NCBI GenBank assembly: GCA_900323505.1
Contig: OOIN01000015.1
Coordinates: forward strand, 770,541-834,540
Reading direction: 5' to 3'
Length of the DNA: 64,000 bases
From: Ustilago trichophora
Lineage: Eukaryota > Basidiomycota > Ustilaginomycetes > Ustilaginales > Ustilaginaceae
Shown here: piece after piece, positions 9,513 through 64,000 of the stretch
Layout: the number at the start of each line of letters is the position of its first letter
Numbering within the stretch: the first letter of the stretch is position 1
The notes under the pieces: model-generated
Seen by the model: only the letters and a program-made list of their open reading frames with translations
What the model was told of the DNA's origin: nothing
Database searches by the model: none
Made by a program: the position numbers and the translations under genes

Positions 9513-9914
9513 CGTGATGATTATGCTTTTGATGATCTCTTCGGGTTGGAAGAGGGTTTGGGATCAGTCGTTGATGGTTGGAGGTAAGGGAGCATCCGAG
9601 AAGCGACAACTGCCCCTTTTATGCTTTTTCTTCAACTCCTGTGGCTCCTGTGGCTTTCCTGATCGATCCCACATCTCATCTGGCCCACCTTGAAACAGAG
9701 AAAAGTCCGCTATTTCATGTGGGTACCCACCATTCTTGCAACGCCGAATTCGTATCATGCGATGAAGTGGGTGGCTGGTGGGGTCGAGGCAGTGTCTGCA
9801 CTCGGAGCAAGGTCACGTCTGGTGAGCAGTGAGCATGCTGAAGCACTAGGAAACTGGACGTTGTTGCCAAGATGTCTAAAAGTGGGCTTCCGTCTGGATC
9901 CAATCCGAGCGCGG
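9513..9914. other. Intergenic region, nothing evident
   Basis: Upstream region of the secreted-protein gene and 3' region of the WBP11-like gene, both on the minus strand. No repeat or RNA seen. Confidence 0.5.
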
Positions 9915-13345: not shown

Positions 13346-16300
13346 ATGTCTTCATTCAAAAACATTTTTCGCAACATCAACAAGGACAATTCGCCACAGT
13401 CTTCGGCTGATCACAAGCGTTCCAAATCCATTTCCGCGGCTTCACCCTCCAGCTCGGCACAGCCATCGGACAATTCCTACGCCTTTGGCAGCACTTCTCT
13501 CCGCACCAACGGTTCAGTGCCCGTCTCTCCCTTTTCAACCCCGACCAACTTGCCTGCCATCGACGTCACCCATCTCTCCAACCTAGACAATCGCCCTCAC
13601 AGTCCAACAGAGTCCAACGTCTCCACCCTCAGAGCCGCCGACAACCGCACCGACAATTCCTCTTTCCATTCCAACTCGCTCCGCTTCGATCCCAAATCCC
13701 ATCGCTCCATGGCCAGACCATCTTCCAGCAGCCACGCCCAAGCTCGCAGTGAGCCTGGCGGCGCTCTCGCCAGCGGCGGCGGCGGTAAAGCTTCCCGCCG
13801 TGGTTCAAGGGTCGCCCCCAGTGATGACGCACATGGCAAGTCAGAGCCACTCAACCGTCACGAGCTCATGAGAAGAGCCATGGCTACCGCACAGGATTAC
13901 GACGACCACACCGATGGCGATGATAGCGGCAGCGTCTTTGATGATGACCACGACCATCTTTCCAATTCGCATCACTCTCACAACACCCATCCAGCCCAAT
14001 TCGCATCTCATCAACCTCATCCCAACAACTCCACCCCCGTCATCGTAAGGCAGCCTCCATCTTCCGATCGTCCCGGCGATGGTAGTCTTTCCATCGACGC
14101 CTTTGGCAACGGTCCATCTCAAGTCATCAGTGCCACAAACGGCGCGGCACCGGCTGATGGTCAGCGCGCGTCCAACGTTGGTCGAACATCGTCATTCACT
14201 AACACTCCCACCTCTTCAGCAAAACACCCTTCTGGTGGTCCTGTCCCTCCCTCACCCTCGCTGACCGCATCCTCCACCATGCCTACTCTGGTCACACCTG
14301 CACCAGTTCGCGCCGAACTGCCCCGTTCTGACTCTCTCGAGGAACTTATCAACCACGGCAACGTATACGCTCCCATGCAGCGCTCCGAGTCTTCCCTGGT
14401 CGCTTCATCGGATTCTTCCAGAGGCATCCCACAACGCGCCAGCACCTTAATCGAGCCTGCCACCTCGCCCAACCGCAACTCGAACCACGCCATGGCCAAA
14501 AGTGCCTCCAGTGGCGCGCTGCTCAGGCCCACCGACATTCCTGGAGTCGCCGACGGCAGCCCTCGTCGCCCCTCCGATGCAGCCTCAACCAACGGTCTCG
14601 CTCCTGGTCCTCTTGCACGTCTGCGCAAGAACAGCGACAGCAGCACCATCAGCAAAGCGAGCAAGGCTAAGAAAGGCGGCCCTTCAGCCGGTATTGCCGG
14701 TGCATTGGCTGCCAGTGGCATTGCCGGCATGGGTGTCGGTCATGCTGGCGTGCTGCAGCACAGTCAAGCCGCTCTAGCTGAGACCGAACCTACTTCGGCC
14801 AAGAAGAAGAAGGAGACAAAGAAGGCCGGCACTGGCCTCGGCGAGGTTGGTGCAGCAGGTCATGTATCTGGCTTTGGTGGCGGAATCTACCGCGATCCCT
14901 CCACAGGCAGCGTCATCGAAAAGGACTCGGAAGGCAACCAATTCAACGCACATCGTCCGCACCGAGATCGCAGCGCGAGCAGCTTCATGTCCTATGACGG
15001 CTCGGTCACCAGCGATCGATCTTCCGTAAGCGGCCTCGGCGCAGCGGCCGGATTCGGTGCTGCCTCGGCTGCTCTACTGTCTTCGATCGGAGGTGTACCA
15101 GGAATGCCCATCACTTCGCCGCTTTTGACCCCAGATGGAATTCATGCTATCGGCGGCGGAGGTCTCGTCCCACCCCAAGCAGGTGGAGCAGGCGGTGGAG
15201 GTGACCACATCGATGGCGAGACAACTTGGCCTGAGGACATGGGTCCACAAATCACCGGCTTCGCTGTTGCCAGCTCCAAGAGAAACCACGAGTTCCACCA
15301 GCTCTTCCCCCAGGTACCCGAAGATGACTATCTCATCGAAGACTACGGTTGCGCTCTGGTCCGTGAGATTCTCATCCAGGGACGGCTTTACATCTCGGAA
15401 AACCACCTCTGCTTCAAGGCCAACATCTTTGGCTGGGTCACCAACGTCGTTCTCCCCTTTTCCGAGATCATCTCGATCGAAAAGCGAATGACGGCGTTTG
15501 TCATCCCCAACGCCATCCAGATCTCGACGCTGCAGTCCAAGCATAATTTCACCTCGTTCCTCTCGCGTGATGCGACGTACGATCTCACGGTAAATATCTG
15601 GAAACTGTCGCACCCCGGTGTGCCTATTGCCGCGGCTGATCAGGCAGATCTGTCGGACGAATATTCGGAGATCGAGGACGACGCCGACGACTCGGCAGCC
15701 GCAGCAGCTGGTGGAACGGCTGTAGGCGATGCAAAGGGCGGCGACGGCGAGCAGCAGACTAAAGAGGGAGGCGAGTCTAAGCCGTCCAAGCGCGCCAGGC
15801 TGAAGCGCAAGCTCAAGGGCACCAAGACAGGTGTACGCGACGAGAACCTCGCAGCGGTCGCAGCTGCAGCCGCAAGATCTGGCACCCCGCTTATCCCGCA
15901 GAGTCGCTCTCCCGCCCCGGGGGGTAAACGTGTTGCACATCGCAAGACCACCTGTCCATGCGAAGAGAAGAAAGAGCACTTTACCTCTGTTGTCCTCGAC
16001 ACGACCTATCCCGCTGTTCCTGAAAAGATCTACAATCTCCTCTTCACCTCGACCTTCATGAAGGAATTCTGGACGGATGACCAAAAGCTGATGGATCTGC
16101 AAATTTCGGAATGGAGTCCCTCCTCTGATAACCGCAATCTGCTCTCCCGCAACATTTCGTACATCAAGCCGCTCGCTGGTGGATTCGGGCCTAAGCAGAC
16201 AAAGTGCTTGCTGACCGACGAAAACCTGCATGTCGACTTTGACAACTACGTCGTCACCTTGACGACCACTCGCACGCCGGACGTGCCGAGCGGTGGAAGT

Positions 16301-17338
16301 TTCACCATCAAAACCAAGACGTGTATCACGTGGGAAGGAACGGGCAATGTTTCACGCGTCTATGTGACGTGCCAGGTGGAATGGTCGGGACGTAGCATGT
16401 TGAAGAGTATCATCGACAAAGCGTCGTTGGATGGACAGAAGCAGTACTACAAGGAACTGGATGAGGCAGTGAGAAAGTATTTGACGGATCATACGAGTGA
16501 GTTCAAGGAGGAAGGGGATGATGCAGCCGCGGTGGAGGAGATTGCGAGGGCTGCTACACCAGGGCCGAACAGTAGGAAGGGGGCAGCTGCTGCCGGTGAG
16601 CGGTCCGCTAGTGGAGGTGCCGGTGGGGATGGCTCTGCTGCAGGTGGTTCAGGTGGTAGTGGAGGTGCAAGTGGTGCAAGCACTGGAGGTAGCGGCGGGA
16701 TCATGGATCAGGTCATGGACGCATTCGGGATGGTTGGCGACCTCCTCGGAGGGGCCCTCGAGATGATCGGGCTTCAAGATGTCAGCCTCAAAACCCTCGC
16801 ATTCGGCGCCATCATCTTTATCCTCCTCCTCTCCAACATTTACACCTGGCGCAAAACGTCCTCCACCCTCACCTCGTCTCACGACATGGTGGAGCACCTC
16901 GACAAGATGCAGGCGGCCGACACCAACCGCGGTTACTTTAGCGACGAAGGCTATTATGGGCCCATGTCACCTCGGGGCAGCCGCAAGGTGGGCGGATGGC
17001 CACCCGTCACGGAGCGCATCTTCGCGCCCAACGTCTACATCACGCCACCGGGAGGGAACGATGCTGCTACGCCAGATGCGATCGCAAGGACGGTAGCTGA
17101 GGTGTTGGACAAGCTGTACGAGCAGAATCTGGAGCGGTACAGAACATCGACCGCTGCTTCTGCAAGTGCAGCGGATGATTCAGAGTCGATCAAGAGGTTG
17201 CTGGCGGAAGCGGAGGCGCACATCGAACGGCTCGAGAGGCGGATCAGGGCTGCGAACCAGGACTTGGCGGGCGGAGAGGGCCAGGGGAATGAAAAAGCGA
17301 AGCGGAAGACAGGCAAGTCAGGGAAGGTGGAGCTCTGA
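13346..17338 (+). CDS. GRAM-VASt domain sterol-transfer protein (Lam/Ltc1/GRAMD1 family)
   Basis: 1330 residues, ATG start, single exon. Residues 1-640 are disordered and Ser-rich. A GRAM (PH-like) domain spans about 648-751 (FHQLFPQVPEDDYLIEDYGC, LIQGRLYISENHLCFKANIFGW). A single VASt/StART-like domain spans about 872-1046 (VVLDTTYPAVPEKIYNLLF, ISYIKPL, VEWSGRSMLKSIID). One transmembrane helix lies near 1150-1168 (FGAIIFILLLSNIYTW), followed by a coiled coil near 1276-1310. Order GRAM-VASt-TM is that of ER-anchored sterol transporters at membrane contact sites (yeast Lam5/Lam6, animal GRAMD1). One VASt domain groups it with Lam5/6 rather than Lam2/4. Role: moving ergosterol between ER and other membranes; substrate is inferred from family. 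Confidence 0.92.
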   Translation: MSSFKNIFRNINKDNSPQSSADHKRSKSISAASPSSSAQPSDNSYAFGSTSLRTNGSVPVSPFSTPTNLPAIDVTHLSNLDNRPHSPTESNVSTLRAADNRTDNSSFHSNSLRFDPKSHRSMARPSSSSHAQARSEPGGALASGGGGKASRRGSRVAPSDDAHGKSEPLNRHELMRRAMATAQDYDDHTDGDDSGSVFDDDHDHLSNSHHSHNTHPAQFASHQPHPNNSTPVIVRQPPSSDRPGDGSLSIDAFGNGPSQVISATNGAAPADGQRASNVGRTSSFTNTPTSSAKHPSGGPVPPSPSLTASSTMPTLVTPAPVRAELPRSDSLEELINHGNVYAPMQRSESSLVASSDSSRGIPQRASTLIEPATSPNRNSNHAMAKSASSGALLRPTDIPGVADGSPRRPSDAASTNGLAPGPLARLRKNSDSSTISKASKAKKGGPSAGIAGALAASGIAGMGVGHAGVLQHSQAALAETEPTSAKKKKETKKAGTGLGEVGAAGHVSGFGGGIYRDPSTGSVIEKDSEGNQFNAHRPHRDRSASSFMSYDGSVTSDRSSVSGLGAAAGFGAASAALLSSIGGVPGMPITSPLLTPDGIHAIGGGGLVPPQAGGAGGGGDHIDGETTWPEDMGPQITGFAVASSKRNHEFHQLFPQVPEDDYLIEDYGCALVREILIQGRLYISENHLCFKANIFGWVTNVVLPFSEIISIEKRMTAFVIPNAIQISTLQSKHNFTSFLSRDATYDLTVNIWKLSHPGVPIAAADQADLSDEYSEIEDDADDSAAAAAGGTAVGDAKGGDGEQQTKEGGESKPSKRARLKRKLKGTKTGVRDENLAAVAAAAARSGTPLIPQSRSPAPGGKRVAHRKTTCPCEEKKEHFTSVVLDTTYPAVPEKIYNLLFTSTFMKEFWTDDQKLMDLQISEWSPSSDNRNLLSRNISYIKPLAGGFGPKQTKCLLTDENLHVDFDNYVVTLTTTRTPDVPSGGSFTIKTKTCITWEGTGNVSRVYVTCQVEWSGRSMLKSIIDKASLDGQKQYYKELDEAVRKYLTDHTSEFKEEGDDAAAVEEIARAATPGPNSRKGAAAAGERSASGGAGGDGSAAGGSGGSGGASGASTGGSGGIMDQVMDAFGMVGDLLGGALEMIGLQDVSLKTLAFGAIIFILLLSNIYTWRKTSSTLTSSHDMVEHLDKMQAADTNRGYFSDEGYYGPMSPRGSRKVGGWPPVTERIFAPNVYITPPGGNDAATPDAIARTVAEVLDKLYEQNLERYRTSTAASASAADDSESIKRLLAEAEAHIERLERRIRAANQDLAGGEGQGNEKAKRKTGKSGKVEL

Positions 17339-17541
17339 GCCAACTTTGTCCTGCAATTTGATCATCATCTTTCTAATCACTACTCTGTATTGCGTTTGTG
17401 AAGTTTGAATTTGGTTTGTTCGAGATTTGAGAGTTTGTCGGGTCGCTACGTTTGCATTTGAACACAGTTCAGGACGTACAAGACCGTGTTGATGCTGACA
17501 TAAATTGCTGCGCCATTGAGGCTTGCAACTGCCATATCTTC
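17339..17541. other. Short convergent 3' region
   Basis: 3' flanks of the Lam-like and enoyl-CoA hydratase-like genes. The first ~50 bases reappear in altered form at about 19110-19185 (see the repeat entry there). Confidence 0.5.
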
Positions 17542-18558
17542 TCAGTCGGTTTTGGCTGCTTTTGCCTTTGAGCTGCTTGCCGCCGAATTTGGAGTGAAGT
17601 CGTGGAAGGAGCCTTGCTCTAAGGGCTGTAAGAATTTGTGAAAGTCATGGAGATCCTGCGGCTTTGCCTTTTCAATCTGAGCTACGTACTTCTTCATGGC
17701 CTCTTGTGTCTCTGCAACCAAAGCTGCGCCTCCAAACCAGCTCTGCTCGCGAAGCAATCCTTCGGACAGCGTCAGCGAGCTTCCCACGTGGACCGAGTCC
17801 TTGATCGCTTGCACAGAAAAAGGACTGCGTCGGGCGAGCCGTCTGGCGAGATCAATTGCTGTAGGCAGCAGCTCGTTGGCAGGACACGTGCGATTCACCA
17901 AGCCAAGTTCCAATGCTTCAGAAGGCTTGATGGCTTTACCCTCAAGGCACAGTTCGAGCGCCTTGGCTGTACCCAGGGCACGCGAAAAGAATTGCGTCCC
18001 GCCGCCTCCCGGGATCAGACCAATGAGAGACTCGACTTGACCCATCACCGGATGATCGGTGTCCACGAGCACTCTGTAATCGCAAGCGAGGGCAAATTCG
18101 CAACCTCCTCCAAAGCAAAGTCCATTGATCGCGGCGATGAAGACCTGCGGCTTGCTTCGAATCAATCCACAAACCTCTTTATAAAGGTTGAGATCGGCCA
18201 CGCCAGCAAAGAGTGTCTTTCTCGTGAGGGCCCTCAGACCCAAAGATGCCAAAAAACTTTCGCAACGAAGAGCAGTCCGGATGATAAAAGGCGAGGTTGG
18301 CATCCATGCTGGCATCGATTGTCCAAAGGCAATGATTTCGTCGACGTTGTAGTGCGTGACAAAGATGTCTTTGATGCCTGAAGTCAGAATCACCGCACGC
18401 GTCGTGTTGGCAGTGAGGGGAGAAATGATCTGTTTGAGCTCTTCGAAGCAATCTCGATCGAGGAAATTGTACGGCTCGTTGATAAGGCTGATGATGAGAA
18501 TGTCATGTTGAGGACGACTCGTCTTGAGGTGCGGTGTAACTTGTTCCCACTCCTCCAT
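17542..18558 (-). CDS. Enoyl-CoA hydratase/isomerase (crotonase) family protein
   Basis: 338 residues, ATG start, single exon. Crotonase-fold motifs are clear: NEPYNFLDRD near the N-terminus, the CoA/oxyanion-hole segment AAINGLCFGGGCEFALACDYR, and VESLIGLIPGGGGTQFFSRALG with the acidic residue that precedes the GGGG loop, then ALELGLVNR. It is longer than short-chain hydratases because of an insertion of about 45 residues (PAWMPTSPFIIRTALRCESF onward) before the oxyanion-hole segment and a 40-residue Ser/Ala/Lys tail. No PTS1 at the C-terminus and no obvious mitochondrial presequence, so location is uncertain. Members act in beta-oxidation or in side pathways such as siderophore acyl groups; no partner genes are adjacent. 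Confidence 0.8.
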   Translation of the reverse strand: MEEWEQVTPHLKTSRPQHDILIISLINEPYNFLDRDCFEELKQIISPLTANTTRAVILTSGIKDIFVTHYNVDEIIAFGQSMPAWMPTSPFIIRTALRCESFLASLGLRALTRKTLFAGVADLNLYKEVCGLIRSKPQVFIAAINGLCFGGGCEFALACDYRVLVDTDHPVMGQVESLIGLIPGGGGTQFFSRALGTAKALELCLEGKAIKPSEALELGLVNRTCPANELLPTAIDLARRLARRSPFSVQAIKDSVHVGSSLTLSEGLLREQSWFGGAALVAETQEAMKKYVAQIEKAKPQDLHDFHKFLQPLEQGSFHDFTPNSAASSSKAKAAKTD

Positions 18559-53915: not shown

Positions 53916-56900
53916 ATGAACGTGGACGATACCAAAGACGAGACTCTCAGCGCTCCTGTCCCGTCTTCCTCGTCGCCTTCGTCACCCTCAACAACGCAAA
54001 AGCTGCAGGAGCTGTTGGCCAAATATCATGCGTCCGCAGATGATACCAAACAACATTGGTGGAGCAATATCGAATTCGCTCTGGATTCCAAGTACGGCGA
54101 TGAGATCCGCCGCCACTACATGGTCAGCTTTGTCGACCACCCTGTATTCCGGAACTTGGTCAAGGAGCTGCTCGACCACATCGATGAGCTTCCGCGCTCA
54201 TTTACCGACCAAGTGTTTGACCGATCCAAGTCGTCGTCGCCTCTTCCTCGACCCCGAATGGGTGCAGATCGACTGCTCGCAGATCTCAAAGATGCCAAGC
54301 TAGATTGTACTGATCCGGCTCACTGCCTCGAGACGGTACTACGACACCTGCACAAGCCTCTTCCACGTCGCCCCGTCTCCTCCCTCACCATGATGACGCC
54401 CGTTGCCGATTTTACATCCGCTTTCTTCGGTCCCAGTCTCATCTTGCTTCAAGACCACATCACCGTCCACAATGAGCTTTTCCCGCACAAAAAGCATGAT
54501 TCGTCTCCTGACCTAGTCCATATTCCCAATCCCACCCAGAACAAAACCGCGTGGCGGGACTACACCAAAGTTCTCCCCATCATTCAGTCGTCCGGATTTG
54601 GGAAAACACGCATGTGCGTCCAGCTCAGTACTATCAGCCCTGGCATGCTTGTTTGTCTCCGCGAGAGCAGCATCCGCACCGTGCATCACCACGTCTCCTT
54701 TCCGCCTCAGGATTCGCACGTCTATTCGTATTTCGAAGCATCCAAAGCTCTCCTCAGCAGCATCGACTTCCCCGTTTCCGCAGAGCAGCATGCCCATTTC
54801 AACAGAGCACATCTTCACGTCTGCGCCTGGCTAGCCATGTACTGCTCCGCCATCGCCTCCTATCTCGAACGCCTCAAGGCAAGTGCTGGCTGCTTCTCTA
54901 GCCTGCCCTGCGGTCCCGCCTCCCACGAACGCTCTCACCCTAACGGTCTCTGCTGGAAGACCGTGGTTTATCATCTTGCGGCTGTCATTCACTCGTCGTC
55001 GGAGGATTTTGTCCCACACTCGCTCTTCGATCCCCCCGACTTGTGTCCAGAAAGCCAGCTCCACATGCTCGCTCAACAGTCAAAGGATGCTACCACCCAA
55101 GCACCAACGCGCCAGACACCCGCCCCGTCGTCGTCGACCACTGAAGCTAAGAAGGAGGAAAAGCCCGTGCTGCCGGATCTCTTCACCACCCCCAACCTAC
55201 GCACGCAATTGCTCAAGTTCATCTGCGACTCGGCCGAGGCTCTCTACAAGGACATGTGCACGAAACACTCTTCTGCCATGTCCCAGCCTGAACATATGCT
55301 CCAAAAGGCGATCAAAACGAATTTGACTTCGCAAATCAATAGGCTAGAGGCATGTGTACCCAATGGCTTTCATCAGCCATTCTTCTTCCTCGCATTGGAT
55401 GAATGTGGTTCCATGGCCACTCTGCTACCAGTGATACGCCGCGTATGGTTCCACGCCAGACCTCAGAGGTCCTGGATCCTTCTTATTGACACCAACTCGG
55501 ATCTAGCTCCGCTTGCCGGCGAAGCCGCTCGCAAGGGCTCTCGACGTACTGACCGTGGTAGCACGCATAGGCTCACCCAACCTTTCTCTACCATGCCCCT
55601 CGACGTCAACGTCGCTGCTGAGACCCGTCAACGCATTTTTGCCGACCGCAATACGTTTACGCTTGAGGACCTCAATCGATTGCTACCCAAGCTAGGCCGA
55701 CCCTTGTGGAACGACCAACGCTACCACGACCAGCATGGCATCATCGATCCGCAGGTCGTCATCACCAAACTCGTCTCGCCCGGCGATTGGACTTGGGACA
55801 TCAATCAGAAAATCCCACACGAGAGCATCGCCGAAGTCATCCAGAACCTGTTGGCTCTTGCCTCACGCCGCATCAATCTGGAGCTCACCAGCCGGTCAAG
55901 TCCTCAATTGTGGTACAACTTTGTTTCGACACAGATTGCACAGCATTTGCGCTTTGTCGGCCGCATCTTCACCACCTCCGACTCTATCATCAGCAACACG
56001 CCAAGTGAGCCGCCGCTCAGTGCCGCTGTGGCTTGGTTCTTTCGCTGCGAGCCCAAAATCACTCTCAACAAATGGCAGATGGTGATTCAGGCAATCGCGA
56101 GCGCGATCGAAACCATTGGCTTCGACGTTGGCGCACAAGGAGAACAGGGCGTTGCGCTCTTGTGCAGCATGGCCATCGATCTTGCCGCCGTAGACAAGTA
56201 TGCCAATGACTTGGCAAAGTCGTATTCGGAATCCAGTGATGTCAACCATCTTTACCCCGCCCTCTTCGGCCTTGTATCCGTCCGGGACTGGCTGAAAAAT
56301 TTGATCAGCGACATCGGACGCCTCGATTCACCACCTTTGTTTACACCGCAAGAGGACAACAATCAGATGCAGCTCGAGTCGGACGAGGCCGCGTCCTCGG
56401 CGCCAGACGCTGCGCGCCAATTGGCAGAATGGAGTGATCGCGCTTGGCTCAACTTCAAGCACATAGTTCGCCTGGAAGAGCAGCTGCCCATCAAGGATGT
56501 CATGGATCCAGATTACCTTGCGGAGTTGTGGGTCCGGCAGGCCGCAGCACAAGGCATCTCAAATCAACCGGGATGGGATCTTCTCATTCCTGTGTACGAG
56601 TCGAGCACACCAGCAGCACCAGACGACAAGTCGGAGGCCTTTGACAAGTCCAAGCTGTCGTACGTTGCTGTGCAGGTCAAGAACTGTATCAAGTTCCCGA
56701 CCGAGAAGCTAAAAGAGCCGGTGGGGCCTCGGCTTGCATCTTCCGAGCTCAAGCAATGTCTCGAAATCTTTGTTGACCTCAAAGGCAAAGCTCGTCACAC
56801 GGGACCTATTCTCTCGCAGCGACGACATACCGCCGCAGAATCAACAGCAGAGGCGAAACAAGCCGACACAGTATCGCAGCTGCTGCGACATCATCTCTTG

Positions 56901-57173
56901 GTCACCGGTTTGGATGCGATAACTTTTCCCATCCTCGATAAGCTAGTGAGTCCCGCCAGCGATCAAGTCTGTCTCTTGTTTGGTAACACCAACTCGCGCG
57001 ACACGATCGATTTTGATCGCGCTCGTGCGGCCCATGTACGACAACAGGATCCGGCTCATCAGGTCGCCTGGGACGAGGCCCAAGTGCGAATCAGCGGCGC
57101 ACTCGTCGACCTCCAGCTGCCTTCGGACAGACGTGATCGAAAGCGCAAGCGCAAGCAGCACACCCGCGCTTGA
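53916..57173 (+). CDS. Large P-loop NTPase with C-terminal PD-(D/E)XK-like nuclease signature (Crinkler-like architecture)
   Basis: 1085 residues from the first ATG (MNVDDTKDETLS); no signal peptide. Residues 225-231 (SSGFGKT in IIQSSGFGKTRM) form a Walker A-like loop; 490-497 (FLALDECG, D495/E496) a Walker B-like strand followed by ILLIDTNSD. The C-terminal ~220 residues carry AELWVRQAAAQGISNQPGWDLLIPVYE (D888) and, 32 residues on, YVAVQVKN (Q920, K922). The spaced D...QxK is the pattern of restriction-endonuclease-fold nucleases. NTPase plus REase-like nuclease is the core of Crinkler (CRN) effectors and their transposon relatives in fungi and oomycetes. The link to CRN is inference from architecture. 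The C-terminus (RKRKRKQHTRA) is a likely nuclear localisation signal. It is the last conventional gene before the telomere and has a dead partial copy at 43.8 kb. Confidence 0.7.
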   Translation: MNVDDTKDETLSAPVPSSSSPSSPSTTQKLQELLAKYHASADDTKQHWWSNIEFALDSKYGDEIRRHYMVSFVDHPVFRNLVKELLDHIDELPRSFTDQVFDRSKSSSPLPRPRMGADRLLADLKDAKLDCTDPAHCLETVLRHLHKPLPRRPVSSLTMMTPVADFTSAFFGPSLILLQDHITVHNELFPHKKHDSSPDLVHIPNPTQNKTAWRDYTKVLPIIQSSGFGKTRMCVQLSTISPGMLVCLRESSIRTVHHHVSFPPQDSHVYSYFEASKALLSSIDFPVSAEQHAHFNRAHLHVCAWLAMYCSAIASYLERLKASAGCFSSLPCGPASHERSHPNGLCWKTVVYHLAAVIHSSSEDFVPHSLFDPPDLCPESQLHMLAQQSKDATTQAPTRQTPAPSSSTTEAKKEEKPVLPDLFTTPNLRTQLLKFICDSAEALYKDMCTKHSSAMSQPEHMLQKAIKTNLTSQINRLEACVPNGFHQPFFFLALDECGSMATLLPVIRRVWFHARPQRSWILLIDTNSDLAPLAGEAARKGSRRTDRGSTHRLTQPFSTMPLDVNVAAETRQRIFADRNTFTLEDLNRLLPKLGRPLWNDQRYHDQHGIIDPQVVITKLVSPGDWTWDINQKIPHESIAEVIQNLLALASRRINLELTSRSSPQLWYNFVSTQIAQHLRFVGRIFTTSDSIISNTPSEPPLSAAVAWFFRCEPKITLNKWQMVIQAIASAIETIGFDVGAQGEQGVALLCSMAIDLAAVDKYANDLAKSYSESSDVNHLYPALFGLVSVRDWLKNLISDIGRLDSPPLFTPQEDNNQMQLESDEAASSAPDAARQLAEWSDRAWLNFKHIVRLEEQLPIKDVMDPDYLAELWVRQAAAQGISNQPGWDLLIPVYESSTPAAPDDKSEAFDKSKLSYVAVQVKNCIKFPTEKLKEPVGPRLASSELKQCLEIFVDLKGKARHTGPILSQRRHTAAESTAEAKQADTVSQLLRHHLLVTGLDAITFPILDKLVSPASDQVCLLFGNTNSRDTIDFDRARAAHVRQQDPAHQVAWDEAQVRISGALVDLQLPSDRRDRKRKRKQHTRA

Positions 57174-58160
57174 GCGTTGGAGGAAAATTTGTTGAAAAGA
57201 GCATAGCGGATGGGGATCACCATTCTCAATCCTAAAATGTGGCCGGAAGACAAAGGTTTCTTTGGCATTGCAGCAGATCATATTGTCATATATGAGGACA
57301 AGCTGTCAAACTTCAAGTAAGTTCCCTAGCCCTAGGCCGCAGGTCCTTGTTGGCCGGCAGCGGACCAGGCCGCTCTGCCAAATGGACGCGTCCAACCTCG
57401 GCTGCTGACCCCAGCGGACAGCGCAAAACACACTGGCCAAGTGCCGCAACGGTTTGAAATTTTTCTTGGCTCAGCAAGCGGCCCAGCATCCAAGAGACAC
57501 GTCAAAATTCTTGGAAATTGTTGGAATTGCAGTCGCGTCCACCCACTGACCCAGTGCCCAGCAGCCAGCAGCCAGCACACAGCTGCCACTGCTCAGCAGC
57601 CACGGCTCACCACAGCTCAGCTGTTGCCGCTCAACAGCAGTGAGAGTCTGTCCATTTTGGGTGTAGCAGCCCAATGGTCTGTACACATTTCAAGCTGTAG
57701 TCCGTGTATGAATAGGAGTCAAGCGTACAAGGGCAAACACCTATTCAAGGGGCAGTGCAGACCAATGGGCCGCACAAAGTTGTGAATTTCCTCCAGCCCT
57801 TTTGTCTGGGACTACCTTGTCAAACTGCACACATTCTTGTTTGGTCACATCAATCTCACTTGAACAACAGCACGTCTGTTGATGCCAGAAATCAACTAAG
57901 AAATTGGGTCATTGAAATGGATTGCAAAATTGGAAGTAGACGCGACACGCACAGCAACTGCAGTGAAAATTTTGATTGCCGCTTTCTTGTTTGTCAAGCA
58001 GCGGCCAACGCTCAGCAGTCACCAGTCAAGAGCCACTGGTCAATGCAAAGAGCGGTCATCGACTCATCAAATTGAGGCCACCGGTACTGCCATCCTCGGC
58101 AACAGCTAGAAATGCATCAATGGAGCGGCACCCACAGTTCATGCTGCCTGCCCTTTGTTG
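57174..58160. other. Proximal subtelomeric spacer
   Basis: About 1 kb with no gene. It has a CAGC-rich stretch (57540-57620) and AT-richer flanks, and ends at the short TAGGG-type sequence that precedes the first subtelomeric unit. Confidence 0.5.
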
Positions 58161-59184
58161 GCTAGGGTTCCAAGGCCGTCAGTGGATGGGGTGTTGCAGA
58201 GAAGACGCGTCTGCCTGTGAAATTTTGAGACGGTCCAATACAAATCCAAGACGGTCCATTTCAAATCCAAGACGGTCCATTTCAAAGTGAAGACGGTCCA
58301 ATACAAATCCAAGACGGTCCACTACAATTCCAAGATGGTCCAATTCAAAGTGAAGACGGTCCACTACAATTCCAAGACAGTCCACTACAAATCCAAGACG
58401 GTCCACTACAAATCCAAAACAGTCCGCTTCAAATTGTAGGCACTCCAATAAAAAGTGAAGACGGTCCACTACAAAGTCAAGACGGTCCACTACAAAGTCA
58501 AGACGGTCCACTACAAAGAGAAGACGGTCCACTACCGTTGTGCACTTGCTTGGCGCTCCTTCAGATCACCATCATCACCGATACAAATCCAATACGATGT
58601 CCAAGGTTACGTGCCCAGTCTGCTCCTTTGCCTACGCAGCAAGCAATATCACAAATCATTTCCGCAAAGCACACAGCGGAGTGTTTGTCACACAAGAGGC
58701 TGCTGCTGGAGTGGGTCTTGTTGCGTGTGCTTGTGGTCAGCTTGTGCTGAATGCTGCAGCATTGCGGAAGCATCAAGGGATCCGCAAGTGTCATGGTGCC
58801 GCTTCACAGCCTGCACCACCGGCTCCAACAACACAGCCAGCTGCGTCTGCAGTCACACAAGCAGAGTCAGCTCCTGCGGCACTGGCAGTTGAGCAAGATG
58901 ATCCATTCCTGCAGCTGGTGGATCCCGCTCTTCTCATGGATGAACAAGCACTTGCACCAACATCAGACTTGGACTCAAGCCGAGAGGATTCCCCACTTGC
59001 CCTGGTGGACGACAATTTGGACTTTGTCTTTGCTGAAGCCGATGCAGAGGCAGCAGCAGCAGCAGCAGCAGCTACGCAAGAGCCAGCGGCAGAAGATGTG
59101 GAAATGCACGATAATTTTCACAATAATTTGCAGGAAGACGCGTCCTCTGGTGAAGTGCCGAATCCATTTCCAATTCCAAGTCTT
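58161..59184 (+). repeat. Subtelomeric unit, proximal copy (3'-truncated)
   Basis: Begins with GCTAGGG followed by TTCCAAGGCCGTCAGTGGAT and contains a 21-bp minisatellite and the 5' third of the zinc-finger gene. It matches the distal copy almost base for base apart from minisatellite unit number and a few substitutions, for about 580 bp of coding sequence up to CCAATTCCAAGTCT, where the match stops abruptly and telomeric sequence begins. Confidence 0.92.
58228..58534 (+). repeat. 21-bp minisatellite, proximal copy (14 units plus a partial)
   Basis: Tandem 21-mers with the core GACGGTCCA followed by a variable (C/A/T)TACAA(A/T)-type half. Units 10 and 11 are divergent (AACAGTCCG, GGCACTCCA) and occur at the same place in the distal copy. 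21 is a multiple of 3, so frames stay open on both strands. Confidence 0.95.
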
Positions 59185-59322
59185 GGGGTTAGGGTAGGGT
59201 TCCAAGGCCGTCAGTGGATGGGGTGTTCCAGAGGAGACGCGTCTGCCTGTGAAATTTCAAGACGGTCCAATACAAATCCAAGACGGTCCAATACAAATCC
59301 AAGACGGTCCAATTCAAAGTGA
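58597..59322 (+). pseudogene. Truncated copy of the subtelomeric zinc-finger gene
   Basis: ATG followed by SKVTCPVCSFAY and the same first ~195 residues as the 916-residue gene downstream, with a few differences (an extra Ala in the Ala run, NL for NF). After PFPIPSLG the frame runs through the interstitial telomeric sequence and into the start of the next unit, ending with SNTNPRRSNSK. The large C-terminal part is missing, so it encodes at most the zinc fingers and the acidic linker (241 residues). Because promoter region and fingers are intact, a short regulator or dominant competitor is conceivable but speculative. Confidence 0.85.
59185..59200 (+). repeat. Interstitial telomeric sequence
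   Basis: GGGGTTAGGGTAGGGT: about two and a half TTAGGG-type units in the same orientation as the terminal telomere, exactly at the junction of the two subtelomeric units. Confidence 0.92.
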
Positions 59323-59630
59323 AGACGGTCCATTTCAAAGTGAAGACGGTCCACTACAAATCCAAGACGGTCCAATACAAATCCAAGACGGTCCACTACA
59401 AATCCAAGACGGTCCATTTCAAAGTGAAGGCGGTCCACTACAAATCCAAGACGGTCCATTTCAAAGTGAAGACGGTCCACTACAATTCCAAGATGGTCCA
59501 CGACAATTCCAAGACGGTCCACTACAAATCCAAAACAGTCCGCTTCAAATTGTAGGCACTCCAATAAAAAGTGAAGACGGTCCACTACAAAGTCAAGACG
59601 GTCCACTACAAAGTCAAGACGGTCCACTAC
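59260..59630 (+). repeat. 21-bp minisatellite, distal copy (17 units plus a partial)
   Basis: Same repeat as in the proximal copy, with thirteen units rather than nine before the two divergent units, so the arrays have changed length since duplication. It ends about 60 bp upstream of the zinc-finger ATG, in promoter or leader position. Confidence 0.95.
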
Positions 59631-59691
59631 CGTTGTGCACTTGCTTGGCGCTCCTTCAGATCACCATCATCACCGATACAAATCTGATACA

Positions 59692-62442
59692 ATGTCCAAG
59701 GTTACGTGCCCAGTCTGCTCCTTTGCCTACGCAGCAAGCAATATCACAAATCATTTCCGCAAAGCACACAGCGGAGTGTTTGTCACACAAGAGGCTGCTG
59801 CTGGAGTGGGTCTTGTTGCGTGTGCTTGTGGTCAGCTTGTGCTGAATGCTGCAGCATTGCGGAAGCATCAAGGGATCCGCAAGTGTCATGGTGCCGCTTC
59901 ACAGCCTGCACCACCGGCTCCAACAACACAGCCAGCTGCGTCTGCAGTCACACAAGCAGAGTCAGCTCCTGCGGCACTGGCAGTTGAGCAAGATGATCCA
60001 TTCCTGCAGCTGGTGGATCCCGCTCTTCTCATGGATGAACAAGCACTTGCACCAACATCAGACTTGGACTCAAGCCGAGAGGATTCCCCACTTGCCCTGG
60101 TGGACGACAATTTGGACTTTGTCTTTGCTGAAGCCGATGCAGAGACAGCAGCAGCAGCAGCAGCAGCTACGCAAGAGCCAGCGGCAGAAGATGTGGAAAT
60201 GCACGATAATTTCCACAATAATTTCCAGGAAGACGCGTCCTCTGGTGAAGTGCTGGATCCATTTCCAATTCCAAGTCTCGATCTCCCAGCTGCAGACGAG
60301 GACAATTTGCAGGAAGGATCAGAGGCAGGATCGGAGGCAGGATTAGAGGCAGAGACATTGGAGCAGGAGGAGGACACTGGGGAGACATTGCCGCAGCTGC
60401 CGCTACAGGAGGTACAAGCGCCTCAGCCTCAGCAGCTAGAGCTTGATGTACCTGACATGCCTGAGGATGGCATTGTTGTACTGCTTCCAAGTATGGACTC
60501 ACCAACCGGACCAGTGCCCAATCTGCTGCTTGACTCACACGCTGCCGAGGAGCCTCCCATGCTGCCACCAATCCCTGGCCTGTCTCCGATCACCGATTGG
60601 AATGTGGGAGTTGACACCGATGTGGATTCATTTGCGGTGACAATTTCTCCTGCCGATATCCTCAAGATTTTTCCGGCCGGCTGCTACCTGTCACTGATCA
60701 GCCACGCGCCTGATTTCAAAGACTTGGCTTCATTCAACAGCTGGGTTTATTTTGCGGAGCTCAAGGTGCTCTTCCGGTTTGAACCGCAGTTCAAGTTGCC
60801 GCTCATCCAGCGGCTGTGTCAAGCACCGCAGAAGGCAATTCTCATTCCATCGGAATATGCCACAGCACTCACACTTGGTGAGCTGCGCTTGGATGTAGGA
60901 ATTGTGGTGGAGGCGCTGCAAGACATTGGTTGCCAGAATGTGCGCATGGGAGCATACGGCATCAAGGTGCCAGTGGACCGGTTCCTTGACCCAGCTATGC
61001 TGAGTGAGCATCCGATGCGGGAAAGCAATGTCTTTGATATTGGCTGCACGATTGATACAGGACGTGTCACACTGATTGCCCCCAAGAGCAAAAAGGGCAA
61101 GTACAAACAATATCCGATGGCATTACGGGTGGGGAGAGGATTTGGAAGTGTGGAATTGAAGTGGAGCAGCCGGACAGATGGGATTACGCACTTCAAAGGA
61201 TATCCCAAATTGACGCATCTGCTCAAAGCCGGTGCAGCCGGTGCAGGCCAAGCAGGAGTGCCGATGACTGTCAAGACCGTCAAGGACCGCATCAGCACAC
61301 TGGAGAGCTGGAAGCAACGCATCATTGGCACAGCACCAGAGCTGGGCAGTGGAGTGCGGCTGGAGGTCACAGTGCAGGCAGCCACGATGCAACAGGCAAG
61401 AGCGGCAGCTGAGGCCAGCCAGTACTTGGATCACCGATACCTCTTCTCTGAGGCAGCAGGAGATCAGCAGCTGCTCACGCACACGATATGCAAGGCGGAC
61501 ATGTTTGCAGATCTGGATGCACTGCTGGCCATTGTGGAACACAAGCAAATCTTCCGAGGCAATCATTCCAAGCAGTCAAGCGGAGTGCAGCGGCAGGCTG
61601 TCATTGACCTGTACAATGCAATGGGCTGGCATCCTGGACGTAGACCAACTGCACTTGACAGTCACATGGCGTGGTGGGAGACCAACCAGGCTGCTCTAGA
61701 TCTTGCAGATGAGCTGGAGCGGTTCAGCACACCGGCAAGCACAAAGCATCTGTTTTCACATGTGCAAGCTCATTTGCGGTGCCGGGGCTGCCACAAAGTG
61801 GGTACATATGCTCTGTGCGGAGGAGCCAATCAATTCCGCATCCGGTGCACTGATTGCCGGGCCACTCTTTCTGCGCAGAAATTCCGAACCCACCTTGCTC
61901 TGCTTGCATCACGGCAGCAGCTGGGAGTGGATCTGCGTGCTCTGGTGGTGGATCCTGCCCGGCTCATTTTTGCAGGGATTGAGCAGGAAGACTTTGCCAT
62001 GCGGAAGCTCAGCCAACGGCAGGATCTCAATGGTCTCTGCCGCACAAATGAGTTTGCGTCCATGCGGGAATCAATGTTGGAGTGCTTGGCTCTGCATTTG
62101 GAGCACAGACGTGAGGCACCAGGGCCGCAGGAGATCAGAGCCAAGGCAGTGGATTGGTTGCGGGAAAATACACAGGCAGTGGAGTATCATCTTGGTACAC
62201 GGAGCAGACCAGCAGCAGAAGCATGCCTAGAGAAGTTGGCTGAGCGGGATGCGGAGCTCAGCCGTGAAGAGGAGGTTGTGCTGCTGCATGGAGTTGCAGG
62301 AGCATTTGATGTGCGGATTGCTCACTTGCAGCTGTTGCGTCGGTCTTGGTCATGCCAGGTGATTCCTCTCGGCAGCCAGGGTCCATACCTTGGACTGGTG
62401 CAGCTTTCAGGTGGGTATGAAGTGCTCACGCAAGCTCAGTAG
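59692..62442 (+). CDS. Subtelomeric C2H2-type zinc-finger protein of unrecognised family
   Basis: 916 residues from ATG (MSKVTCPVCSFAYAASN). Finger 1 is C6-x2-C9-x11-H21-x4-H26; a second finger-like CACGQ...RKHQ...KCH follows. Residues about 75-300 are acidic, Gln/Ala/Pro-rich linker. Residues 300-900 look globular and unfamiliar: LKIFPAGCYLSLISHAPDF, FRFEPQFKLPLIQRLCQ, RVGRGFGSVELKWSSRTDG, VIDLYNAMGWHPGRRPT. A zinc ribbon lies at about 697-722 (CRGC, C709, CTDC), followed by helical Arg/Glu-rich sequence. I found no helicase, RNase H-transposase, reverse transcriptase or HUH motifs. DNA-binding is implied by the fingers; an element-encoded protein acting at telomeres is inference. A truncated near-identical copy lies just upstream. 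Confidence 0.8.
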   Translation: MSKVTCPVCSFAYAASNITNHFRKAHSGVFVTQEAAAGVGLVACACGQLVLNAAALRKHQGIRKCHGAASQPAPPAPTTQPAASAVTQAESAPAALAVEQDDPFLQLVDPALLMDEQALAPTSDLDSSREDSPLALVDDNLDFVFAEADAETAAAAAAATQEPAAEDVEMHDNFHNNFQEDASSGEVLDPFPIPSLDLPAADEDNLQEGSEAGSEAGLEAETLEQEEDTGETLPQLPLQEVQAPQPQQLELDVPDMPEDGIVVLLPSMDSPTGPVPNLLLDSHAAEEPPMLPPIPGLSPITDWNVGVDTDVDSFAVTISPADILKIFPAGCYLSLISHAPDFKDLASFNSWVYFAELKVLFRFEPQFKLPLIQRLCQAPQKAILIPSEYATALTLGELRLDVGIVVEALQDIGCQNVRMGAYGIKVPVDRFLDPAMLSEHPMRESNVFDIGCTIDTGRVTLIAPKSKKGKYKQYPMALRVGRGFGSVELKWSSRTDGITHFKGYPKLTHLLKAGAAGAGQAGVPMTVKTVKDRISTLESWKQRIIGTAPELGSGVRLEVTVQAATMQQARAAAEASQYLDHRYLFSEAAGDQQLLTHTICKADMFADLDALLAIVEHKQIFRGNHSKQSSGVQRQAVIDLYNAMGWHPGRRPTALDSHMAWWETNQAALDLADELERFSTPASTKHLFSHVQAHLRCRGCHKVGTYALCGGANQFRIRCTDCRATLSAQKFRTHLALLASRQQLGVDLRALVVDPARLIFAGIEQEDFAMRKLSQRQDLNGLCRTNEFASMRESMLECLALHLEHRREAPGPQEIRAKAVDWLRENTQAVEYHLGTRSRPAAEACLEKLAERDAELSREEEVVLLHGVAGAFDVRIAHLQLLRRSWSCQVIPLGSQGPYLGLVQLSGGYEVLTQAQ

Positions 62443-63053
62443 TCTGCTTTGAAATTGCCGCAGTAGCTGTTCCCTTTGTGCGGAGTGAAAATTTTTGTGC
62501 GGTCAGTGATCAATGCAGCCGGTGTGAATTACCATTGATTTTTGAGGCCTTCATTGTTGCATGCGTGTGTGTTGAAATATTTTTTTCTGCGATCTTGGAA
62601 ATTGATTGTGATTGAAGTCGGTGTCAGCTGGGTTGCCGATGAGGACTCTACCATAGATCTAGCTTTGGCAGACTTGAGTGACCAACAAAGACGCGTTCGC
62701 TCAGTGGCTGATCTCTTCGGAGTATTGAGAACCAATTTTTGGAGCAGGGTCCCTCCGGCGTGGGGGAAGTTGGGGTTCGATCCCCTTCGGTGTCCCATTG
62801 TTTTCAACAATGGTAATCCCCCGTCACAGAGCTAGTAAAGTCTTCTTTCAAACCCTGACGGGTTCAATTGATGTTGATTTTCACGGCTTTGTGTCTGCGG
62901 CTTTGTTTTTGCCAAATTGGAATGCGGAATGCGGCACTGTACCAATTACAGATCAGTACAAATTGTATCGAATAGTCTCATTTCAATCAATGTGGACACA
63001 CAATGCACACAATACATGGAGAAGGAAACGGTGTGAATTCAAAGAACAACGGA
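62443..63053. other. Spacer between convergent element genes, with Pol III box-like motifs
   Basis: No coding frame. A perfect B box (GGTTCGATCCC, 62774-62784) lies within a short hairpin-like GGGGTTCGATCCCC, with a weak A-box-like TGGCAGACTTG at 62666-62676. No cloverleaf could be drawn, so it is not called a tRNA. Confidence 0.4.
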
Positions 63054-63767
63054 TCAGTCAGAGTCAGGAAGCGGCTTGAAAAGCTGCCAAGCATCGATGC
63101 ACCTTTGCCGGTAAGCAGCCTGCTGTGCTTCTGGGGTGTTGGCCACTTTGCCACCCAGTCCGTTCCACTTGACCACATCTGAGGACATGAACATGGTCAT
63201 GGATCCTCGAGTCTCTCCTGGGAGGATGGGAGAGTTGAAGTGGTGGAGCACGTGGGAAGGGAAGAAGCACAGTGCACCAGGAGGAAAGTCCAGGCTGACC
63301 TTGGCCTCAGTGAAGCTGATCTGCAGCTTGGTGTAATCACCGTAGCTGAAGACGCCAGCTAGGCCCTGCAGATAGTCACGCCTGTCACGGTGGGGGAGGC
63401 TGTATGCCTGGCCTTCCTGGTTGATGGCCAGGGAGGGGAAGCAGGGGGCCCAGAGGAAAGCACCATGGGGCCTGTAGTGCTCCGGGCTGCCGGTGTCCAT
63501 GTAGTGGCTTGCGTGGCTGGGGAAGCACTCGAAGAAGCGTGTGTTGCAGTACTCTCGGAGAGCAGTGACGTGCTTGTTGCGCAGGAATTTAATCATTGTG
63601 CGGTAATTCTTGACAAATTTGAGGTTGAAGTAGGGACCGTCCATGCAGGCAGTGTCTTGTCCACTGAGCATGAGATGAAAGGTGAAGAAGTCACCACGCA
63701 GTGACTCGACAGGTGCACCAGCAGACTTTGGCAGGTCTGCCTGCAGGCGCCTGAACTCCTGGTACAT
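63054..63767 (-). CDS. 2-oxoglutarate/Fe(II) dioxygenase-like protein (TET/JBP-like), probably 5'-truncated by the telomere
   Basis: 237 residues from an ATG at 63767, but the frame is open upstream through GAA GAA TTT AAG into the telomeric CCCTAA repeat, so the true start may be lost. Double-stranded beta-helix landmarks: H126-R-D128 in SLPHRDRRDY, then KVSLDFPPGALCFFPSHVLHHFN with the distal His (175 or 176), and R187 in GETRGSMTMF for 2-oxoglutarate. Order and spacing fit the DSBH dioxygenases, and the PPGALCFFPS-x-x-x-HH block recalls fungal TET/JBP enzymes, which oxidise methylated bases and are carried by transposons in basidiomycetes (family knowledge). It converges on the zinc-finger gene. 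Substrate and activity are unproven. Confidence 0.65.
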   Translation of the reverse strand: MYQEFRRLQADLPKSAGAPVESLRGDFFTFHLMLSGQDTACMDGPYFNLKFVKNYRTMIKFLRNKHVTALREYCNTRFFECFPSHASHYMDTGSPEHYRPHGAFLWAPCFPSLAINQEGQAYSLPHRDRRDYLQGLAGVFSYGDYTKLQISFTEAKVSLDFPPGALCFFPSHVLHHFNSPILPGETRGSMTMFMSSDVVKWNGLGGKVANTPEAQQAAYRQRCIDAWQLFKPLPDSD

Positions 63768-63785
63768 TTCTTCAAACTTGGGGCT

Positions 63786-64000
63786 AGGGCTAGGGTTAGG
63801 GTTAGGGTTAGGGTTAGGGTTAGGGTTAGGGTTAGGGTTAGGGTTAGGGTTAGGGTTAGGGTTAGGGTTAGGGTTAGGGTTAGGGTTAGGGTTAGGGTTA
63901 GGGTTAGGGTTAGGGTTAGGGTTAGGGTTAGGGTTAGGGTTAGGGTTAGGGTTAGGGTTAGGGTTAGGGTTAGGGTTAGGGTTAGGGTTAGGTTAGGGTT
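63786..64000 (+). repeat. Telomere, (TTAGGG)n
   Basis: About 35 tandem TTAGGG units with the G-rich strand running 5'->3' to the right edge, so this is a true chromosome end (or its assembled part). The proximal two units are CTAGGG variants and one TTAGG unit occurs near 63989. Confidence 0.98.

Follow-up and report, generated by a model that had tools for sequence, protein, structure and literature searches.

A subtelomeric unit with a TET/JBP-like dioxygenase gene adjoins telomere-like sequence at chromosome ends of Ustilago trichophora

Among described systems, the unit analysed here (unit A) is close to MoTeR1, MoTeR2, and FoTeR, which likewise are telomeric, have their inner edge beside interstitial telomere repeats, are cut on the outer side by the telomere, form stacks of truncated copies, and contain internal tandem repeats. 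MoTeR1 and FoTeR have a gene for a non-LTR reverse transcriptase, whereas none was recognised in unit A, whose proteins gave no RVT match, and, in contrast to MoTeR and FoTeR, ORF1 of unit A reads outward. A MoTeR2-type partner shares its termini with an element encoding reverse transcriptase, while in the chromosome ends fetched here the terminus of unit A leads into unit A sequence. HeT-A and TART of Drosophila and the terminons of bdelloid rotifers are additions onto chromosome ends, as unit A appears to be, but they are retroelements. To our knowledge, the telomere-joining elements described so far either have a reverse transcriptase or helicase of their own or rely on one.

Yeast Y' and Naumovozyma TelKO resemble unit A as subtelomeric amplicons with short telomeric tracts, and such a tract is found at the inner border of unit A; Y' encodes a helicase, whereas none was recognised in unit A. 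According to PMC12408736, Y' and TelKO of N. castellii are spread by recombination, and their shortened variants lack the inner, not the outer, part; by this rule the inner part is variable and the outer one conserved, the reverse of unit A. The telomere-linked helicase elements UTASa and UTASb of Ustilago maydis, together with unit B described below, compare with unit A in occupying the same ends, having the same kind of G-rich inner join, and being stacked with unit A; the UTASa type has a RecQ-type helicase with an OrsD domain, and an OrsD-like region plus a RecQ/DEAD-type helicase is seen in unit B and not in unit A. Finally, fungal DNA transposons (KDZ and others) share with unit A the carriage of a TET/JBP-type dioxygenase, but no known transposase was recognised in unit A and no internal copies of it were found in the genome searched. 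PMC12730594 describes many fungal DNA transposons as carrying TET/JBP genes, and its text contains neither “smut” nor “Ustilag.” Searches of the open-licence PMC literature brought up no description of unit A.

The window, a stretch of 64,000 nucleotides, is the right end of U. trichophora contig C14. Telomeric 12-mers (at most one mismatch) occur in it 34 times, against 0.05 expected from 100 dinucleotide shuffles. The last chromosomal gene before the elements (53919–57173, plus strand, ORF of ~1,084 aa) has relatives elsewhere in the genome, several of them near contig ends, with 91% matches on C39 and C16; the Pfam search gave no convincing match. An empty allele of the window join was sought on the homeologous contig C13, which matches window pieces up to 53.5 kb but neither of those sampled at 54.5 and 56 kb. 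The 0.8 kb just inside the first copy of unit A (57325–58163, plus strand) is not unique DNA but, according to sequence matches to other B copies, a truncated fragment of the helicase element B, from the part upstream (inside) of its protein-coding frame. It is 97% identical to C8L 7147–7995 over 849 columns and 96% to C15L, also matches C14L, C43L, and C38R, and lacks the TTATATG terminus at its inner edge.

A single telomere-like repeat, CTAGGG (58162–58167, plus strand, as read from the sequence), marks the junction with the truncated copy 1 of unit A (58168–59183, plus strand), which corresponds to positions 1–1002 of the A reference and is 91.6% identical to the longest copy. It holds 21-bp tandem repeats (58228–58535, plus strand, repeat detection) and the N-terminal part of ORF1, cut at the junction (58597–59183, plus strand, ORF list and comparison). 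The interstitial telomeric tract TTGGGGTTAGGGTAGGG (59183–59199, plus strand, sequence read) separates it from copy 2 (59200–63785, plus strand), which is 4.6 kb long and, by comparison with other copies, has lost its outer part to the telomere. Copy 2 contains 21-bp tandem repeats (59258–59630, plus strand, repeat detection), ORF1 of 916 aa (59692–62442, plus strand; ORF list, alignments, motifs by eye), and a 237-aa ORF of a TET/JBP-like 2-oxoglutarate dioxygenase (63054–63767, minus strand; profile, alignment, and structure matches), whose N-terminal part is lost to the telomere. The terminal (TTAGGG)n telomere occupies 63786–64000 (plus strand; repeat array called at 63781–64000).

The first-pass annotation had described two same-strand copies of one unit, each starting right after a telomere-like repeat, with the outermost capped by the telomere. 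Indeed, both copies begin with TTCCAAGGCCGTCAG, copy 1 at 58168 immediately behind CTAGGG and copy 2 at 59200 immediately behind TTGGGGTTAGGGTAGGG, and the TTAGGG array closes the second. Copy 1, however, is only ~1.0 kb long, and the tract before it amounts to one CTAGGG. The segment 59201–63785, suggested there for searches, is a real copy but a truncated one and not a full unit, its dioxygenase frame spanning 237 aa against 426 aa in C15L, C27R, and C40R. The zinc-finger protein and the convergent dioxygenase postulated for the unit are both present, the latter truncated here and TET/JBP-like.

The genome search found 17 starts of unit A at 13 contig ends, all pointing outward and lying 2.3–14.0 kb from the contig end (17/17). 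The unit begins at the identical base, GGG directly followed by TTCCAAGG, in 14 starts, with GG in two and no G in one; perfect TTAGGG precedes five of the 14 GGG starts. A G-rich, mostly telomere-like tract adjoins the fixed start base in 16 of the 17 starts, the one lacking it being a fragment in C24L. This one inner edge faces 13 different flanks. Two look-alikes of the terminus, C10:860270 and C32:517467, proved on reading to be internal chance matches. The copies found across the assembly agree with the earlier expectation in lying only at chromosome ends, with one inner boundary, mostly joined via telomere-like sequence, and capped by telomere or another unit, rather than mainly at internal sites without telomeric boundaries.

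Nine joins have a related sequence without unit A, these relatives being paralogues (76–98% identity) and not empty alleles; the positions at which homology ends are scattered and lie short of the join. In seven of the nine, telomere-like bases missing from the relative (3 to about 35 nt) precede unit A, e.g., GGTTAGGGTTAGGG in C27R, TTAGGGGGGG in C15L, and TAGGG in C8L, and the other two joins (C20R, C40L) fall in a G-rich run largely present in the relative too. No relative lacking unit A was found for C1L and C38R, and only a partial one for C6L. Four joins (C15L, C27R, C40L, C40R) interrupt long open frames. Several flanks belong to repeated families.

The outer ends are ragged, with 11 end points among 12 copies spread over 800 bp, and meet the telomere or another A or B unit; only one pair among the 12 copies has a common outer end. 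The outer composite that C14L and C43L have in common represents a visible end-to-end exchange. C1L carries 703-bp B repeats with identical junctions, which resemble the D-loop amplification reported for MoTeR arrays in PMC7367193. The natural outer end of unit A is not among the copies found, and a distal gene is possible beyond.

ORF1 is a smut-specific protein with N-terminal zinc-finger-like Cys/His motifs, a conserved core, zinc-ribbon-like Cys pairs, and possibly a degenerate OTU-like tail, as judged by eye. Relatives that are 51–68% identical to it occur in other smuts and among environmental sequences, and an OTU protease domain is present in a distant paralogue, about 29–31% identical in the core. 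Searches of Pfam, PHROGs, and PDB sequences recognised no catalytic domain in ORF1, and, as the first-pass annotation had noted for the unit, no reverse transcriptase, helicase, or transposase (including the RNase H type) was recognised in unit A. The best PHROG, phrog_1568 “DNA binding protein,” is a weak match (2/10 members, best E 0.0031), as is phrog_4875 (2/10 members, 0.015); in Pfam, zf-Di19 matches weakly in 4/10 members (best 0.093) and Beta-barrel_SelB in isolation in 1/10 (0.0056). SAGA-associated factor 11 is a further weak match (0.23), and the core alone has no Pfam match. The AlphaFold2 model of ORF1 (mean pLDDT 37.6) is too poor for a fold search. A Rep_trans rolling-circle initiator (PF02486) was considered and rejected, as the genome gave no match to it up to E = 10.

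ORF1 is open, with no stops, in 10/10 full-length copies (pN/pS 0.15), and the product of the neutral no-stop chances over approximate terminal branches is 7e-8; for the dioxygenase, pN/pS is 0.08. Since both genes are under purifying selection, the label of a passive amplicon, offered by the first-pass annotation as one option, is too weak for unit A.

PF12851 (TET_JBP) is matched by 11 of the 14 aligned dioxygenase members (best 5e-6, E up to 0.1), the U. trichophora protein itself matching weakly, under the cut-off (0.017). The HRD, H, and R columns of the HxD...H...R motif are invariant in 14/14, and from the domain matches of its family and this motif the enzyme is classed as TET/JBP-like. 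The best Foldseek matches of its model (pLDDT 56) are NgTET1 and CcTet, both weak (best E 0.008, none <0.001; TM 0.30/0.44). A profile search of PDB sequences found no TET, and a scan of viral contigs found no relatives. Cytosine-C5 methyltransferase genes are present in the genome (six matches at four loci), and therefore a TET-like enzyme could have a substrate.

Element B carries a RecQ-type telomere-linked helicase (DEAD region 1.5e-13; OrsD 6e-5, just under its cut-off) and has a join of the same kind as unit A. Its terminus, TTATATGACTG, differs from that of unit A, and its terminus matches lie at contig ends (34/34), with a G-rich inner join as in unit A. No homology to ORF1 was detected in the B protein over its initial 849 aa, a region without the helicase part. 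Motifs seen by eye hint at a possible tyrosine-recombinase-like region in the B protein, but that piece has no Pfam or PDB match. The similar joining of A and B points to a shared host process; such a process would suffice, because B, with no detectable ORF1 relative, joins ends in the same way.

Taking the sequence comparisons together, we consider unit A to be, on balance, probably a telomere-repeat-primed, Y'/MoTeR-like amplifying subtelomeric element with two unusual genes of its own. It seems to have been joined, by way of its fixed inner edge, to ends that were broken or had eroded, and to accumulate there in arrays, as judged from this edge, the scattered homology stops, the telomere-like bases, and the ragged outer ends. 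A broken or eroded chromosome end would gain a few telomerase-added bases, or expose a G run; the 3' end could then anneal to a different chromosome end, at the telomeric tract that borders an A or B copy on the inner side, and copying would run outward from there (break-induced replication). The new end would later erode and be recapped by telomerase, and repeated cycles would pile up truncated units separated by telomere-like sequence. By oxidising methylated bases, the dioxygenase may hold the subtelomere in an open state; for ORF1, binding to the 21-bp repeats or to the junction is possible. Several observations speak against this reading: the truncation polarity is opposite to that of Y' and TelKO; the outer structure of the donor should often be passed on, yet just a single pair in the 12 copies agrees at the outer end; the conservation of ORF1 in 10/10 full-length copies exceeds the need of a passenger; the start in C24L lacks a G tract; and the relatives without unit A are paralogues rather than empty alleles, with none for C1L and C38R and a partial one for C6L.

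A serious rival, possible although rather less than even in our estimate, is that unit A represents a new kind of autonomous mobile element, whose ORF1 protein would bind the inner terminus with its 21-bp repeats and direct copying onto G-rich 3' ends, the TET-like enzyme being anti-silencing cargo, as in the TET-carrying fungal DNA transposons. The fixed inner and ragged outer edges have the polarity of end-joining elements, and the purifying selection on both genes, the ORF1 relatives beyond this species, and the OTU-bearing paralogue agree with it. However, ORF1 has no recognised catalytic domain, its PHROG match being weak and its Pfam and PDB matches weaker or isolated, and its structure model (pLDDT 38) is too poor to use; moreover, B joins ends alike without ORF1, and internal A copies were not found. 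More tentatively still, unit A may be the first of a class of mobile elements with neither reverse transcriptase nor helicase, spreading only by addition to broken or eroded ends with the help of a protein family new to science (zinc finger, conserved core, OTU-like tail) and of a TET/JBP demethylase that would reopen subtelomeric chromatin; we regard this as unlikely.

A reading of unit A as a MoTeR2-like, non-autonomous telomeric retroelement is improbable; the 3' end of its RNA would lie at the inner edge, and a reverse transcriptase acting in trans would copy it onto 3' ends of TTAGGG sequence. The orientation and truncation of unit A do follow MoTeR and FoTeR, where, according to PMC7367193 and PMC12857005, the 3' end lies beside telomere repeats and the often truncated 5' end outward. 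However, none of the 82 reverse transcriptase matches in the genome falls in unit A; four are no more than 3 kb from a contig end (C20, C24, C26, C42), counted over the contig ends of known position. The C24L match sits in a separate transposable element after an A fragment, and C24L was rejected as a reverse transcriptase-bearing version of unit A, since that element begins inside the A copy. An element with reverse transcriptase and the terminus of unit A was not seen in the fetched ends of this one genome, and the long conserved ORF1 would be antisense to the supposed RNA. An assembly artefact or an ordinary subtelomeric segmental duplication with no special joining edge is very improbable, for despite the difficulty of assembling subtelomeres and the repetitive nature of several flanks, one inner edge faces 13 different flanks, 12 of 12 contig ends fetched to the last base, and C40R too, finish in TTAGGG-type tracts of 145–210 bp, and the A copies have diverged (dS up to 0.09).

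Unit A is conserved and multi-copy, neither reverse transcriptase nor helicase is recognised in it, and it is joined to different ends at one exact base. With its TET/JBP-like enzyme, it ties the healing of chromosome ends to selfish DNA and epigenetic control, and it makes two questions testable: whether end addition may be driven by a non-retro protein of the element itself, and whether gene-bearing elements can persist through ordinary end healing and nothing else.

The stretch under study corresponds to positions 770541-834540 of contig C14 (834,540 bp), whose right end it forms, and two copies of unit A, the telomere-joined element, lie on the same strand near its right end. Copy 1 (start 58168, ~1.0 kb) begins with TTCCAAGGCCGTCAG preceded by CTAGGG, and copy 2 (start 59200, 4.6 kb) begins with TTCCAAGGCCGTCAG preceded by TTGGGGTTAGGGTAGGG and leads on its outer (telomere) side to the terminal TTAGGG tract, so that two same-orientation copies with a common start after telomere-like bases, the second telomere-capped, are present as the first-pass annotation had described. 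The order within A is 21-bp tandem repeats, an outward 916-aa frame (ORF1), and a convergent dioxygenase frame. A fragment of unit B, the second end-joined unit, occupies 57325-58163 and lacks the B terminus. The large gene at 53919-57173 has relatives on C39, C16, C5, and at the left end of C40 (C40L; L and R denote left and right contig ends), where the relative adjoins an A join. C13:815029-863515 aligns with ten out of 12 window pieces, reaching approximately 53.5 kb, mostly at 81-95% identity (one piece, 76%; one short inverted match, 89%); given these matches and the assembly size (38.8 Mb in 45 contigs), the assembly gives the impression of a hybrid genome or of two diverged haplotypes.

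The whole assembly was searched at the DNA level, as the first-pass annotation had proposed, with a part of the suggested query (window 59201-62440), which yielded 20 A matches, all near contig ends. Terminus searches and reading of the fetched ends identified 17 A starts at 13 ends: one each at C1L, C8L, C14L, C15L, C20R, C27R, C40L, C40R, and C43L, and two each at C6L, C14R, C24L, and C38R. Every start (17/17) points outward, at a distance of 2.3 to 14.0 kb from the end of its contig. GGG precedes TTCC in 14 out of 17; the more diverged pair in C38R shows GG before the start, and in one C24L fragment CCC stands there in place of any G tract. Two candidate termini with three mismatches were dropped: C10:860270 is 229 kb and C32:517467 is 36 kb away from the contig end, and neither pattern match is followed by A sequence.

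The inner (chromosome-side) flanks of A are all different (13/13, the C14R flank in this comparison being that of the B fragment). Relatives, that is, related sequences without A, were sought with 260 bp of each flank, and short stretches of them were then aligned at the joins. A relative reaching the join was found for nine A junctions; this search yielded none for C1L and C38R and only a partial one for C6L, and the C14R result concerns the B fragment. In the nine alignments, where the relatives are paralogues of 76 to 98% identity, homology breaks off at differing points, and at least three telomere-like bases absent from the relative are seen in seven out of nine joins: GGTTAGGGTTAGGG in C27R, GTTAGGGTTAAGGG in C14L, TTAGGGGGGG in C15L, GGTTAGGG in C40R, TAGGG in C8L, GGG in C43L (the C14L and C43L alignments are weak near the join), and, in C24L, a 50-nt stretch with five TTAGGG repeats in its last part. 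In C20R and C40L, the join lies inside a G-rich run largely present in the relative too. Long open frames whose start is 248 nt or more ahead of the join are interrupted at C15L, C27R, C40L, and C40R. The evidence that A joins arose by end breakage and subsequent addition is good but, since the relatives are not alleles, indirect.

The outer edge is ragged. Scored against C40R, which at 7.07 kb up to its B junction is the longest copy, the 12 A copies above 800 bp stop at 11 distinct outer points, the sole shared one being that of C14L and C43L; this count omits the shorter copies (C6L inner, two in C24L, two in C38R). Outer ends abut the telomere, another A, or unit B, and the short C24L copies stop where other TEs start. 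No natural outer end was found in copies read outward as far as the 7.07 kb of C40R. At positions 5051 and 6202 of the oriented C24L end, A fragments each run into unrelated sequence beginning TGTT, and the outer fragment leads to an RT-encoding TE, itself cut by the telomere.

Among named sources, ORF1 relatives were found in smuts only (11 proteins in one search and 14 in another, the scored candidates being those sharing most words), namely, Ustilago sp. UG-2017a and UG-2017b, Kalmanozyma brasiliensis, and Pseudozyma hubeiensis, along with unnamed environmental sequences. Identity to relatives beyond U. trichophora is 51-68%, with invariant N-terminal Cys/His motifs and a conserved core; Pfam, PHROG, and PDB gave weak matches, none convincing. 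The ORF1 core recurs in two distant relatives located close to other ends, C28:5521-6738 and C18:775-1482 (for C28, 29% identity across 430 columns, hhalign 99.9%), both of which close with an OTU protease domain (E 7.7e-9 for C28 and 2.4e-9 for C18). On visual inspection, the tail of ORF1 looks like a degenerate OTU domain; the hhalign alignment with relatives of this type stops short of the tail. Both OTU genes are subtelomeric, at left contig ends, with frames directed toward the contig interior; that in C18 begins at a CCTAGGGCTAGGGCTAGGGG tract.

The full dioxygenase (426 aa) is found in C15L, C27R, and C40R, and stop codons are present in C14L and C43L; all genome matches (9/9) are at A-carrying contig ends. 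All 14 aligned members share the HRD, H, and R columns without variation, and 11 of them match Tet_JBP at E ≤0.1 (best 5e-6), the match of the U. trichophora protein itself falling under the cut-off. A moderate-quality structural model has its best, weak PDB matches in NgTET1 and CcTet (E 0.008 at best), and a profile search of PDB sequences returned no TET. Both frames annotated in the first pass, for a zinc-finger protein and a convergent dioxygenase, are present; the window dioxygenase frame is reduced to 237 aa by the telomere. Cytosine methyltransferase genes are represented by six matches at four loci; DNA methyltransferase matches at C24:65006-65530 and C19:552348-552869 lie within open frames of 2,527 and 2,545 aa, possibly DNMT5-like. 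TET/JBP genes are carried by many DNA transposons in rusts, mushrooms, morels, and truffles, according to Kojima (2025; PMC12730594); "Ustilag" and "smut" are absent from its text, and the "telomer" passage belongs to the reference list. Searches of the open-licence literature turned up no description of a telomeric element carrying a TET gene in smuts.

All ten full-length ORF1 copies retain an open frame; their pooled pN/pS is 0.15, and dS between pairs reaches 0.09. For the dioxygenase, four copies (three full, one partial) give pN/pS 0.08; in both cases the pairs are not independent. Under neutral simulation at 3% divergence, 2.8 stops per copy are expected and 6% of copies are stop-free; the product of no-stop chances over terminal branches alone, each branch being approximated by half of the smallest pairwise dS and assumed independent of the others, is 7e-8. 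The A gene copies therefore derive from functional ones, a pattern compatible with a selfish element or with a gene family useful to the host.

With up to three mismatches allowed, the B terminus, TTATATGACTGTCTGG, was found 34 times, always facing outward and never more than 10.8 kb from a contig end. G precedes TTATATG everywhere except in three tandem C1L copies (GGGT), and the flanks are mostly different, the exceptions, with a flank in common, being C10L/C38L, C14L/C43L, and the C1L tandem. The B protein starts with an OrsD-like region; in C43L it continues into a DEAD helicase domain and is cut off by the telomere after 1,107 aa. It fits the telomere-linked helicases UTASa/UTASb of U. 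maydis as excerpted in PMC10532341; helicase genes at 22 chromosome ends are reported for Sporisorium scitamineum (PMC4466345, excerpt). Between these two parts of the B protein (C43L 14498-17821, oriented end), motifs of tyrosine-recombinase-like appearance are seen by eye, for which database searches gave no support. At C1L 7290-9840 (oriented end), three ~703-bp and one shorter copy of the B inner part stand in tandem with identical junctions and look like products of tandem copying by a D-loop or rolling circle, a route put forward for MoTeR arrays (PMC7367193). No homology was detected between ORF1 and the first 849 aa of the B protein, a span without the helicase part. As B termini also point outward at contig ends, with G before the terminus and mostly different flanks, the two elements join ends alike.

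This likeness is the main argument for a host process, in which a G-rich 3' end would pair with the telomeric tract that borders a resident unit on its inner side and be extended outward by copying that unit, the new end being recapped by telomerase. Addition driven by the element itself is a serious rival, argued for mainly by selection on ORF1 and by the polarity of A, which is opposite to that reported for Y' and TelKO (PMC12408736, excerpt) and like that of MoTeR/FoTeR (excerpts of PMC7367193 and PMC12857005). A retro route lacks a reverse transcriptase: of 82 RT matches in the genome, none forms part of A and four, among contigs of known length, sit no more than 3 kb from an end, in agreement with the first reading of the unit. 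At the sequence level, A combines a fixed inner edge, mostly telomere-like joins, a ragged outer edge, stacking, and purifying selection. The initial observation is confirmed, and its interpretation as a telomere-joined mobile element is partly supported, by end location, the fixed inner edge, and the telomere-like joins. A belongs with the telomere-joined elements and has a fair chance of forming a new class.
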